DNA of 46,217 bases, from the NCBI GenBank assembly GCA_021851065.1, contig JAJZJQ010000010.1, forward strand, positions 1-46,217. The letters are read 5' to 3'. The position numbers and the translations under genes are program-made. The stretch comes from Microcaldota archaeon (GTDB taxonomy: Archaea; Micrarchaeota; Micrarchaeia; Micrarchaeales; CABMGC01). Below, piece after piece: positions 5,366-13,170 of the stretch. How positions within the stretch are numbered: the first letter of the stretch is position 1; each line of letters begins with the position of its first letter. The notes beneath the pieces were generated by a model, which had not been told where the DNA came from, did not search any database, and saw only the letters and a program-made list of their open reading frames with translations.

Positions 5366-6595
5366 ATGGGAATAAAGAGCGCTGCTTACGCTTACCTGTT
5401 TTTTGCGCTGGTCCTTGGCGCACTGCTACCCATAGCGCTGGACTATGCATCGAGCATGGGTATTTACGAGTTCCTGTTCGTAACCTATGCCATATCCGTG
5501 CCTGCATCGCTGGTGTTTGTGCTTGCAAGGGGAAAGTGGCGCAGGCTTGCAAGCTACCTTGGCAGCTGGAAGGATCTTGGCATAATAGCAGCCATAGGGC
5601 TGCTAAACTATGCCACGCTTGAGCTTGGAATGGCATATGCTGAGCGCTTTGTGACTGCATCCCTGGCAACGGTGGTGTACAGAACCTACCCGCTGCTAAT
5701 GCTGGCCTTCCTGCCCATAGTGCTCAGGGAAAGGGTAAGCAGGTACCAGATTGCTGCGCTGTCGCTTGGCTGCATTGGCCTTTGCATAGCGCTTAGCGCA
5801 GGGACTCTGAACATATTCGCAGGCTCGGACCCCGCCATAGTGGCCTTGCTTGTAGGGGTGGCATTTTCAGGAGCTTTTGCTGCAGTGCTTGTAAAGAAGT
5901 ACGCATACGACATGGAGAGCTCGATGTTCATATTCAACCTTGCAAACTTCCTGCTCTTTGCGGCTCTCTTCGCATACGGGGGGTTTCAGCTTCGCGCAAT
6001 TACAATAGGCAGCATGATGCCAGCCCTATACGTAGGCATATTATACAACGTTATCATTGGCTTCATGTACTACGGCGCGCTGCGAACCCTGAAGACTACG
6101 ATTGTAACCAACATATACTTCCTCTCCCCATTCATAACCATACTGTTTGCGTATGTTCTGCTTGGCGAGGCCATAGAACCGTATTACCTTGCAGTGGCGT
6201 TTCTGGTAGGATGCGGCATATTGATACAAAGTTTCGATAAGACAGGAGGAACGTACCGTGCCAGGGCGCAGTCTAGGCGCAGGTTCGCGGTATTTGATGT
6301 GACCGGAGCTTTTGTGGATACTGGGGAACTTGCCATAAGCGCTGCCATAAGGAGCGGGGGACGCGTCTTCGCCGCCAAGCTTGAGGGTAAGCGCGGCAAT
6401 GCGGTTGATGAAGTCGTGAGGCTGGGAAGCTACCCGAACGTGTTTGGTCCCGACGACATAGCAGCACACGAGTCCGATTTCGTCAAGGACGTGATAGGGG
6501 CAGGGGATGGGGATACGGTAATAATAAAGGCAGGGGACATAGAGAGCGGGGAGAGGTTTTTCGAGGATCTTTCGCTCAAGATGGAGGGCCCGTAG
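5366..6595 (+). CDS. EamA/DMT-family membrane transporter with an extra C-terminal soluble domain
   Basis: About 10 hydrophobic helices arranged as two EamA-like halves, then about 118 hydrophilic residues (RRRFAVFDVTGAFVDTGELAISAAIRSGGRVFAAKLEG...). Confidence 0.8.
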   Translation: MGIKSAAYAYLFFALVLGALLPIALDYASSMGIYEFLFVTYAISVPASLVFVLARGKWRRLASYLGSWKDLGIIAAIGLLNYATLELGMAYAERFVTASLATVVYRTYPLLMLAFLPIVLRERVSRYQIAALSLGCIGLCIALSAGTLNIFAGSDPAIVALLVGVAFSGAFAAVLVKKYAYDMESSMFIFNLANFLLFAALFAYGGFQLRAITIGSMMPALYVGILYNVIIGFMYYGALRTLKTTIVTNIYFLSPFITILFAYVLLGEAIEPYYLAVAFLVGCGILIQSFDKTGGTYRARAQSRRRFAVFDVTGAFVDTGELAISAAIRSGGRVFAAKLEGKRGNAVDEVVRLGSYPNVFGPDDIAAHESDFVKDVIGAGDGDTVIIKAGDIESGERFFEDLSLKMEGP

Positions 6596-6627: not shown

Positions 6628-6652
6628 ATTTATAATATTTCAGATTTATAAT
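6628..6652 (+). promoter_or_regulatory. TATA-like element(s) upstream of tRNA-Ser
   Basis: ATTTATAATATTTCAGATTTATAATCG ends about 10 nt before the tRNA 5' end. Confidence 0.45.
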
Positions 6653-6660
6653 CGCTATGC

Positions 6661-6780
6661 GCCGGGATGGCAGAATCCGGTATCGCGCCAGAAGCAATGG
6701 CGAAACTCGAGATCTGGTGGCCTTCGGGCCTTTAGGGTTCAAAATGCTCCGATATCAGCATGAAACTCCCTATCCCGGCG
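6661..6780 (+). tRNA. tRNA-Ser(CGA), type II, with two candidate introns (about 6692-6704 and about 6744-6766)
   Basis: Acceptor GCCGGGA (6661-6667)/TCCCGGC (6773-6779), discriminator G6780. Anticodon stem CCAGA/TCTGG (6713-6717) with loop CTCGAGA once about 13 nt are removed. Long variable arm GGCC-TTCG-GGCC (6719-6730). T stem TAGGG (6733-6737)/CCCTA (6768-6772), with a 30-nt T 'loop' containing ATGCT-CCGATATC-AGCAT. D stem is weak (A-C mismatch). Confidence 0.8.
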
Positions 6781-7087: not shown

Positions 7088-8293
7088 TCATACGGCTTTT
7101 GTTATTTCCAGTAGCAGTATGGTGGCGTAAGAGCCGGTAGGCAGCGAGAAGTCTACCTTAAGGTCGCTGCCGTCCATATGGCACTTTAGGTCTTTTGCCG
7201 GAACGATAAGAGGCCTTGTGCTGCCCTTTGCGCTCACTTCGGGCATGGATGCGATCTTGAAGTCTTCCCTGGCTAATCCGGCCTGTGATAATGCCTGCTT
7301 GTCATATGCGCTCATGGCCTTCTCGTCTGTAGTGTACCCGGCAAGCGCGCCGAGCGGGAATCTGCCAGCAGGCGAGAGCGCATTAAGGTCTGGAAAGCCG
7401 TAGAAGTTCTCAGTGCATCTTAAGGGAGACTCGAAGTCTGCGGCCTTGATTCTTGACTCGAGTGCTGCGTTGAACACCATGGACTGCACAGAATGCACGA
7501 ACATCAGTAGCACCCCACGTGGCAGCTTCCTTAGCGCGTTTGCCGGATTGTCGTACCTTGACATGTACTCTATTACGCTTCTCTCATTGCGCATGCCTGC
7601 AGGAAAGTATCCCAGCGCTGCCCTGAAGTCCTGCTCCTGCGCAAGCCTCTTGCGGGCCGCTATGCATGCCTCGTTCCTCTCGTTGCTGGTATCTGTCAGG
7701 AATTTCATAACTGCACCCCTGAAGTCGCCATGCATGATCAGCATGCCCACCTCATGGTTGTTCATCCTAAGGCCAAATCGTTGCCTGTCGAAGTAGTTTG
7801 GCATCCTTCCGTCAAGCTCGTCGATTACCCTGGCTGCATTTTCAGGCTTGCTGCACCCCCTTATCACCGCAGTGAATGAGTTACCTACGTTGCTGCCCAG
7901 CTCCACGGCGCCGGCGCTTTTCCATGCACCGTTGACCTTCATGTCCCTTATGCGCAGCCCCATGACCTGCGCAGGTTCCACGCCGAATATGCTTGCAAGC
8001 TGCACGGATATGGATTGCTTGTCCTTTACGCCGCAGTAGCCTATGGATTTCTTCCCGTGCCCCATCATCTTTGCCATCCTAAGCAGCAGCTGCACAGTGT
8101 CCCAGCTCCTTTTCTGCAGCACGAATGTGGTGAACTTGCCTTCTGGGGATTCTTGTTCCCCAAGCTGCTGCGCGTCATAGGATTGATCGGGGATTGGAAT
8201 GCGGCCTTTTGTGGTTATCTCCTTCACAATGAAGTCCTGCGGCCCTGCCTTGAAGACGCCGCCTGATCCCGAAGCAGTGGACAGGTATAGCAT
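7088..8293 (-). CDS. truD: tRNA pseudouridine(13) synthase TruD
   Basis: DFIVKEI, KRSWDT, GYCGVKDKQSISVQLASIFG, GNSFTAVIRG, MPNYFDRQRFG, LPTGSYATILLLEITK. Confidence 0.93.
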   Translation of the reverse strand: MLYLSTASGSGGVFKAGPQDFIVKEITTKGRIPIPDQSYDAQQLGEQESPEGKFTTFVLQKRSWDTVQLLLRMAKMMGHGKKSIGYCGVKDKQSISVQLASIFGVEPAQVMGLRIRDMKVNGAWKSAGAVELGSNVGNSFTAVIRGCSKPENAARVIDELDGRMPNYFDRQRFGLRMNNHEVGMLIMHGDFRGAVMKFLTDTSNERNEACIAARKRLAQEQDFRAALGYFPAGMRNERSVIEYMSRYDNPANALRKLPRGVLLMFVHSVQSMVFNAALESRIKAADFESPLRCTENFYGFPDLNALSPAGRFPLGALAGYTTDEKAMSAYDKQALSQAGLAREDFKIASMPEVSAKGSTRPLIVPAKDLKCHMDGSDLKVDFSLPTGSYATILLLEITKAV

Positions 8294-12189: not shown

Positions 12190-13083
12190 ATGGAAATACG
12201 CGTTACTATGCTTGGAACTGCAGGATCCTCGCCTGCAAGGGGAAGGTCGCTGCCGGGCGTGGCCATCTCCTATGAAGGAAGCGTTCTGCTGTTCGACTGC
12301 GGCGAGGGCACGCAGATGCAGATGCTCAAGTACGGCACCAACTATTCCAGGATAGAGGCAATATTCATAACCCATGCCCATGGCGACCACATAATAGGCA
12401 TAGCAGGGCTTGTGCGCACCATTGCGATGAACAAGCGCGCAGAGCCGCTGTGCATCTTCGTGCCAAAGGGCTACGAGAGCATAATAAAGACCCTAATAGC
12501 TTTTGACAGGGCAATGATAGGCTACAGGATAGATGTAAAGGGCATAGGAGCAGGATTCGTGTACAGGGGGAAGGGGTTTAGCGTGAGGGCTTTTAGGCTT
12601 AGGCACACCATCGCTGCGCTAGGCTATGTATTCAGGGAGGATGAGAGGAGGAATTTTGTTGTGGATAAGTGCGAGAAGCTTGGGATAAAGGGCGAGATGT
12701 ACGGCATTCTCGAGAAGAATGGCAGAATAAGGGTGGGCAAGAAGACAGTAAGGCTTAATGACGTAACCACCATAAAGGAAGGCAAGAAAGTGGTCTATGC
12801 GTCTGACTCAAGGCCCGTTAGCACTACTGTAGCTGCTGCAAGGAACGCTGATCTGCTAATACACGAATCCTCGTATGCAGACAGCGAGATGGAGCTTGCC
12901 AGGGAGAGGGGCCACTGCACAGCTGGAGAGGCGGCTGCAATAGCCAAGAAGGCGGATGCGAAGAAGCTGGTGCTCACGCACATAAGCGCAAGGTACAGCA
13001 GCCCTGGGACCATAGAGAACGACGCAAGGAAGATTTTCAGGAACTCTGAAGTAGCTGAGGACGGAGAGGTTATAATTGTTTAG
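12190..13083 (+). CDS. rnz: Ribonuclease Z (tRNA 3' endonuclease)
   Basis: MEIRVTMLGTAGSSPARGRSLPGVAI, LLFDCGEGTQMQML, FITHAHGDHIIGIAGLVRT, YASDSRP, LIHESSYAD, LVLTHISARY. Confidence 0.95.
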   Translation: MEIRVTMLGTAGSSPARGRSLPGVAISYEGSVLLFDCGEGTQMQMLKYGTNYSRIEAIFITHAHGDHIIGIAGLVRTIAMNKRAEPLCIFVPKGYESIIKTLIAFDRAMIGYRIDVKGIGAGFVYRGKGFSVRAFRLRHTIAALGYVFREDERRNFVVDKCEKLGIKGEMYGILEKNGRIRVGKKTVRLNDVTTIKEGKKVVYASDSRPVSTTVAAARNADLLIHESSYADSEMELARERGHCTAGEAAAIAKKADAKKLVLTHISARYSSPGTIENDARKIFRNSEVAEDGEVIIV

Positions 13084-13099
13084 TGCAACTTATTCTCGC

Positions 13100-13170
13100 G
13101 GGGGCATCGTCTAGTGGTAGGATGGCAGATTGACATTCTGCAGGCAGGAGTCCAATTCTCCTTGCCCCCA
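13100..13170 (+). tRNA. tRNA-Val(GAC)
   Basis: Acceptor GGGGGCA/TGCCCCC, D arm GTCT-AGTGGTA-GGAT, anticodon arm GCAGA-TTGACAT-TCTGC (anticodon GAC), T arm AGGAG-TCCAATT-CTCCT, discriminator A. Starts 16 nt after the rnz stop codon. Confidence 0.9.

Follow-up and report, generated by a model that had tools for sequence, protein, structure and literature searches.

The window analysed here, i.e. the whole stretch of 46,217 nucleotides, is contig C1 of a metagenome-assembled genome of Ca. Micrarchaeota (1.13 Mb in 36 contigs, 87.5% complete), an ARMAN-type lineage as a sequence-only reading of the stretch had supposed. An interrupted tRNA gene lies at 6661-6780, flanked by genes for an EamA-type transporter with a C-terminal extension (5366-6595, +) and for TruD, tRNA pseudouridine synthase D (7088-8293, -). 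The same window carries an ordinary, intronless tRNA-Val(GAC) at 13100-13170 (+), just upstream of which a gene at 12190-13083 encodes a metallo-beta-lactamase / tRNase Z-like domain. The features of the interrupted gene are as follows.

6629-6637, +: AT-rich TTTATAATA, a putative archaeal TATA box read from the sequence, about 24-32 nt upstream, a position that fits
6661-6780, +: pre-tRNA-Ser(CGA) gene without encoded CCA, identified by ARAGORN after excision, the excision grid and orthologues
6661-6691, +: exon 1, with the 5' strand of the acceptor stem, the D-arm and positions 27-30
6661-6667 and 6773-6779, +: acceptor stem, GCCGGGA paired with TCCCGGC
6686-6689, +: exon CGCC, 5' strand of the central helix of intron 1, pairing with 6699-6702
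6688-6691 plus A6705, and 6713-6717, +: anticodon stem, CCAG plus A paired with TCTGG
6692-6704, +: intron 1, 13 nt, at position 30/31, in 34 of 36 parsed orthologues with an exact empty site in two
6699-6702, +: intron GGCG, 3' strand of the central helix of intron 1, invariant in 34 orthologues
6703-6705, +: AAA bulge carrying the 3' splice site of intron 1
6705-6743, +: exon 2, with A31, the anticodon loop, the variable arm, the 5' strand of the T-stem and TTCAAA
6706-6712, +: anticodon loop CTCGAGA, with the anticodon CGA at 6708-6710 (ARAGORN)
6719-6730, +: long variable arm GGCC-TTCG-GGCC (ARAGORN)
6733-6737 and 6768-6772, +: T-stem, TAGGG paired with CCCTA
6738-6743 plus T6767, +: T-loop, TTCAAA plus T
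6744-6766, +: intron 2, 23 nt, in the T-loop at position 59/60, in 19 of 36 parsed orthologues
6744-6761, +: inner hairpin of intron 2, ATGCT/AGCAT
6762-6764, +: intron GAA pairing with exon TTC at 6738-6740
6767-6780, +: exon 3, with T60 and the 3' strands of the T-stem and acceptor stem, changing in a compensatory way with exons 1 and 2
6780, +: discriminator G (G73)

Excision of both introns from 6661-6780 leaves an 84-nt sequence that ARAGORN calls as a type II tRNA-Ser(CGA), and the program found no tRNA in the unspliced form or in either form with a single excision. The two introns that had been proposed from the sequence (6692-6704 and 6744-6766) hold almost to the base. A grid of 14,027 pairs of excisions was also applied as a control for chance. 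ARAGORN called a tRNA 1,423 times on the real locus, never on the reverse complement and never on any of six dinucleotide shuffles. The serine identity, read earlier from the discriminator G and the GGCC-UUCG-GGCC arm, is borne out by the spliced form, which has the long-variable-arm cloverleaf, the Ser anticodon and the G73 of a type II tRNA-Ser; G73 is present in all parsed orthologues.

The unspliced locus was detected by neither ARAGORN nor Rfam. When 12 homologous loci with and without the T-loop intron were scored by Rfam, 11 fell under the gathering score; L029, an orthologue with the 30/31 intron only, had a tRNA score of 46.4 bits. With only one of the 12 loci reaching the gathering score, Rfam cannot be used at this locus to judge pseudogene status. 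Introns of the self-splicing groups I and II were considered and rejected, as their catalytic core is far longer than inserts of 13 and 23 nt and the Rfam intron families gave no matches.

The locus was used as a query against sixty genomes, comprising the window's own and relatives. The intron counts are based on 36 distinct orthologues found in this way, each parsed for its exons and introns. Spliced length is 84 nt in 29 of them. The orthologue in G010, a genome of the same genus, lies on contig C30. Across the insert, the T-stem covaries (TTGGG/CCCAA, CTGGG/CCCAG, TAGGG/CCCTA and CAGGG/CCCTG), and the acceptor-stem pairs likewise change in a compensatory way. Together with the conserved splice bases, these changes have the look of selection for the spliced product.

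Intron 1 is bounded by a motif of 4 bp with an AAA bulge and, on its 5' side, a loop, and a proper outer helix is not seen at 30/31; the earlier description of a relaxed bulge-helix-loop (BHL) with AAA at the 3' site was the right term. The introns at this position are mostly 11-15 nt long, with two of 44-45 nt among the 34 orthologues. All 34 have the same GGCG, complementary to exon CGCC, and in the short ones two to six middle bases vary freely. The hairpin on its own does not fold significantly better than shuffles (z -1.1), so the evidence for intron 1 is conservation rather than energy. An exact natural empty site, GCGCCAG|ACTCGAGATCTGG, occurs in G053 and G048. A boundary shifted to 31/32 was ruled out, given that the introns of nine orthologues start with T or C.

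For intron 2, the bulge-helix-bulge (BHB)-like structure previously placed at about 58-60, with its ATGCT/AGCAT hairpin and TTC/GAA pairing, is upheld with one correction: the central helix (TTC/GAA) has 3 bp instead of 4 bp and is flanked by AAA and ACT bulges (the latter NNT across orthologues), making it a relaxed BHB. The T-arm including the intron folds better than its shuffles (z -2.8). Among the 19 orthologues that carry it, the T-loop intron ranges from 14 to 45 nt and little of its sequence is conserved. In 18 of the 19, however, a triplet able to pair with TTC (positions 54-56) stops two bases short of the junction with T60, against a mean of 1.4 and a maximum of 6 in shuffled introns. 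The T-loop intron drifts freely save where splicing constrains its sequence. Orthologues that lack it have an intact T-loop, either TTCAAAT or TTCGAAT. Homologues mark both introns as insertions by comparison with natural empty sites. Precise removal restores a standard tRNA, as is expected of BHB-type introns, and the exon-intron helix with splice-site bulges of about 3 nt is present in relaxed forms.

The two introns are nested in their distribution. The one at 30/31 is more widespread and occurs in f1 and f2, the two families sampled from the order, whereas the 59/60 intron of Ser(CGA) was seen only in one, the window's family f1, of which members G017, G026, G030 and G034 are without it. 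On a tree of the endonuclease, the genomes with the T-loop intron are clustered (4 changes, compared to a shuffled mean of 13.4); the backbone of this tree is poorly resolved and its root was not inferred, and hence it does not decide between a single gain and loss of the intron. In the D-stem, position 12-23 (window 6672 and 6684) is an A12-C23 mismatch in this locus, which ARAGORN accepts regardless in the spliced tRNA, and in 13 other orthologues, with A-A in two more. All 16 orthologues with 12-23 unpaired carry the T-loop intron, and those without the intron have G-C or A-T. The association is not strict, as a paired D-stem and a T-loop intron occur together in, for example, L022, L030, L080 and L082, four loci outside the parsed set of 36 in which the intron was recognised by eye.

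The serine tRNAs found in the genome are GCT (no intron), TGA and GGA (both with canonical introns) and CGA at this locus. No second Ser(CGA) was found among the tRNAs detected in the 87.5%-complete assembly, where a copy could be missing; this was one of the checks that the sequence-only reading had called for. The weak Rfam matches in the genome likewise include no Ser(CGA). ARAGORN labels a candidate at C4:38416-38537 as Ser(cga), which was rejected as it is a type I tRNA without the long variable arm, has the anticodon CAT and carries a canonical intron. In a number of genomes, the Ser(CGA) found (L089, L091, L095, L097, L192, L194 and L195) is a different gene, which is Ser(TGA)-like and, except in G013, carries a canonical intron; these genomes have apparently replaced the isoacceptor.

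An epsilon-type splicing endonuclease, which the sequence-only reading had listed for checking beside a heterotetrameric one, is encoded by the one endonuclease gene found in the genome. The protein is full-length and closest to the ARMAN-2 enzyme (PDB 4FZ2/9W2K), to which it aligns almost end to end (435 bits, residues 10-386), while the remaining solved endonucleases align mainly with its catalytic unit. By sequence it is of the epsilon2 type, being a three-unit chain of about 390 amino acids with the ARMAN-loop residues Y160/K161 and the catalytic residues Y236/H251/K282. The equivalents of Y160, K161, Y236, H251, R275, K282 and W384 are identical in 50 of 50 aligned sequences. In vitro, the ARMAN-2 enzyme cuts both BHB and BHL pre-tRNAs and requires Y160 and K161 (PMC12397907). 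The RtcB ligase is encoded at C20:6752-8056.

On the gene layout, conservation, empty sites and enzyme genes and residues observed here, we consider the locus, at a probability of about 0.95, to be a functional, probably single-copy Ca. Micrarchaeota tRNA-Ser(CGA) gene with two non-canonical BHB-type introns, at 30/31 and 59/60, which would be cleaved by an epsilon2 enzyme and joined by RtcB. Transcription, cleavage and ligation of this pre-tRNA are predicted to proceed through a precursor in which C25-G26-C27-C28 pair with the intron GGCG, so that the D-stem and anticodon stem would be incomplete until intron 1 leaves, and in which intron 2 would sit atop an intact T-stem. The epsilon2-type endonuclease may then recognise and cut the BHL at 30/31, formed by exon CGCC with intron GGCG, and the relaxed BHB in the T-loop, formed by TTC with GAA and the inner hairpin. 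Joining of the exons by RtcB would yield the 84-nt tRNA, reading UCG. Points that weigh against this reading are the unremarkable folding of the intron-1 hairpin, the want of an outer helix there, the A12-C23 mismatch, the incomplete assembly and the sub-threshold Rfam scores of 11 of the 12 homologous loci.

A decaying tRNA pseudogene with random insertions that are never removed would be invisible to general tRNA finders, as this locus is, and could carry a D-stem mismatch such as A12-C23. We regard this as very improbable, considering that the exons are kept in dozens of genomes and their stems change in a compensatory way, that the conserved bases inside the introns are those of the splice motifs, and that the 87.5%-complete assembly yielded no other Ser(CGA). 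The T-stem can form around the T-loop insert, which itself makes a stable hairpin; this would suit a real tRNA-Ser(CGA) in which the 30/31 insertion alone is spliced and the other stays as an extended hairpin. A 30-nt T-loop is nevertheless expected to break the contact between the D-loop and T-loop, and relatives keep a 7-nt loop intact. The fixed-offset triplet that pairs with TTC is moreover in keeping with a splice motif, and it competes with the T-loop's usual fold; we regard retention of the insert as very improbable.

The same gene and mechanism could also operate with the second splice site at 58/59, where a cut in the style of the canonical BHB, between bases 2 and 3 of the 5' AAA bulge, would fall. 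Base 59 would then be variable, with C here and A, G or T among relatives, yet intron-free loops always have A59. We prefer 59/60 because it is the only choice that keeps A59 constant, as in all intron-free loops, and consider 58/59 unlikely.

Positions 30/31 and 59/60 are both in the published list of archaeal non-canonical intron sites, for which lengths of 11-129 nt are reported (PMC4090602, which reviews Marck and Grosjean 2003, Sugahara 2007-2009 and Chan 2011), and tRNAscan-SE 2.0 counted 673 non-canonical introns in 217 archaeal genomes (PMC8450103). The introns described here are like those listed in position, short length and BHB or relaxed splice motifs; they differ in that, in a Micrarchaeota family, a single Ser(CGA) holds both and has none at the canonical 37/38 site, and in their nested pattern. 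The earlier remark that two non-canonical introns in one tRNA are uncommon was only partly fair, since multi-intron tRNAs have been published, those of ARMAN-1 and ARMAN-2 included (PMC4033280 Table 1; PMC4090602), and Pro(UGG) of Pyrobaculum islandicum has three introns (PMC4090602). The multi-intron tRNAs of Thermoproteales also have two or more introns per tRNA with one in the T-arm (PMC4090602), but belong to another lineage with an (alpha-beta)2 enzyme and a crenarchaeal loop in place of the epsilon2 enzyme and ARMAN loop found here. Also close are the systems of ARMAN-1 and ARMAN-2 (PMC4033280; PMC12397907; 4FZ2, 9W2K), which share the phylum, an orthologous full-length endonuclease, the same catalytic and ARMAN-loop residues, and BHL substrates. 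Our literature search, which did not extend to the 2011 ARMAN report (10.1093/nar/gkr692), found no paper on this tRNA in Micrarchaeota.

Both intron positions, multi-intron tRNAs and BHL cleavage by this type of enzyme are hence already known in archaea. This analysis contributes the series of orthologues across the family, empty sites included, the TTC pairing at its fixed offset, and the finding that T-loop introns recur in Leu(CAA). One tRNA occurs with no, one or two introns in dozens of related genomes, all with a single type of endonuclease, and this natural series is useful for testing the origin and spread of relaxed splice motifs. As general tRNA finders miss such genes, ARMAN-type genomes appear short of tRNAs.

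Other tRNAs of the order show comparable insertions. The tRNA-Leu(CAA) gene at G000:C20:6411-6507 (L070, L104), which adjoins the RtcB gene, has a short T-loop intron with GTTC...GAAC pairing followed by AAAT. Among the Leu(CAA) orthologues L105-L133, T-loop introns occur in both families of the order, and Leu(CAA) in G013, G048 and G050 has an intact T-loop with no intron. In L087, from G029 of another genus in the same family, tRNA-Ser(GGA) combines a short T-loop insertion, TTCAAAATATCTATGAAAATCCC, with an intron at the canonical position. T-loop introns might be a recurrent trait of this order, in Leu(CAA) of both families, in Ser(CGA) of one and in Ser(GGA) of one genome, and with a reduced 3-bp central helix made from the invariant TTC of the T-loop might form a distinct minimal class of epsilon2-endonuclease substrates that general tRNA finders under-call, an idea which we put forward tentatively.

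One of the weak Rfam matches in the genome looks like a real Leu(TAA) (G000:C35:35232-35321; L099, similar in L090) that scores only 20 bits. Its D-loop holds roughly 20 additional bases, AATGGCCCACTCGGCCACGG, which are probably a further non-canonical intron near 20/21.
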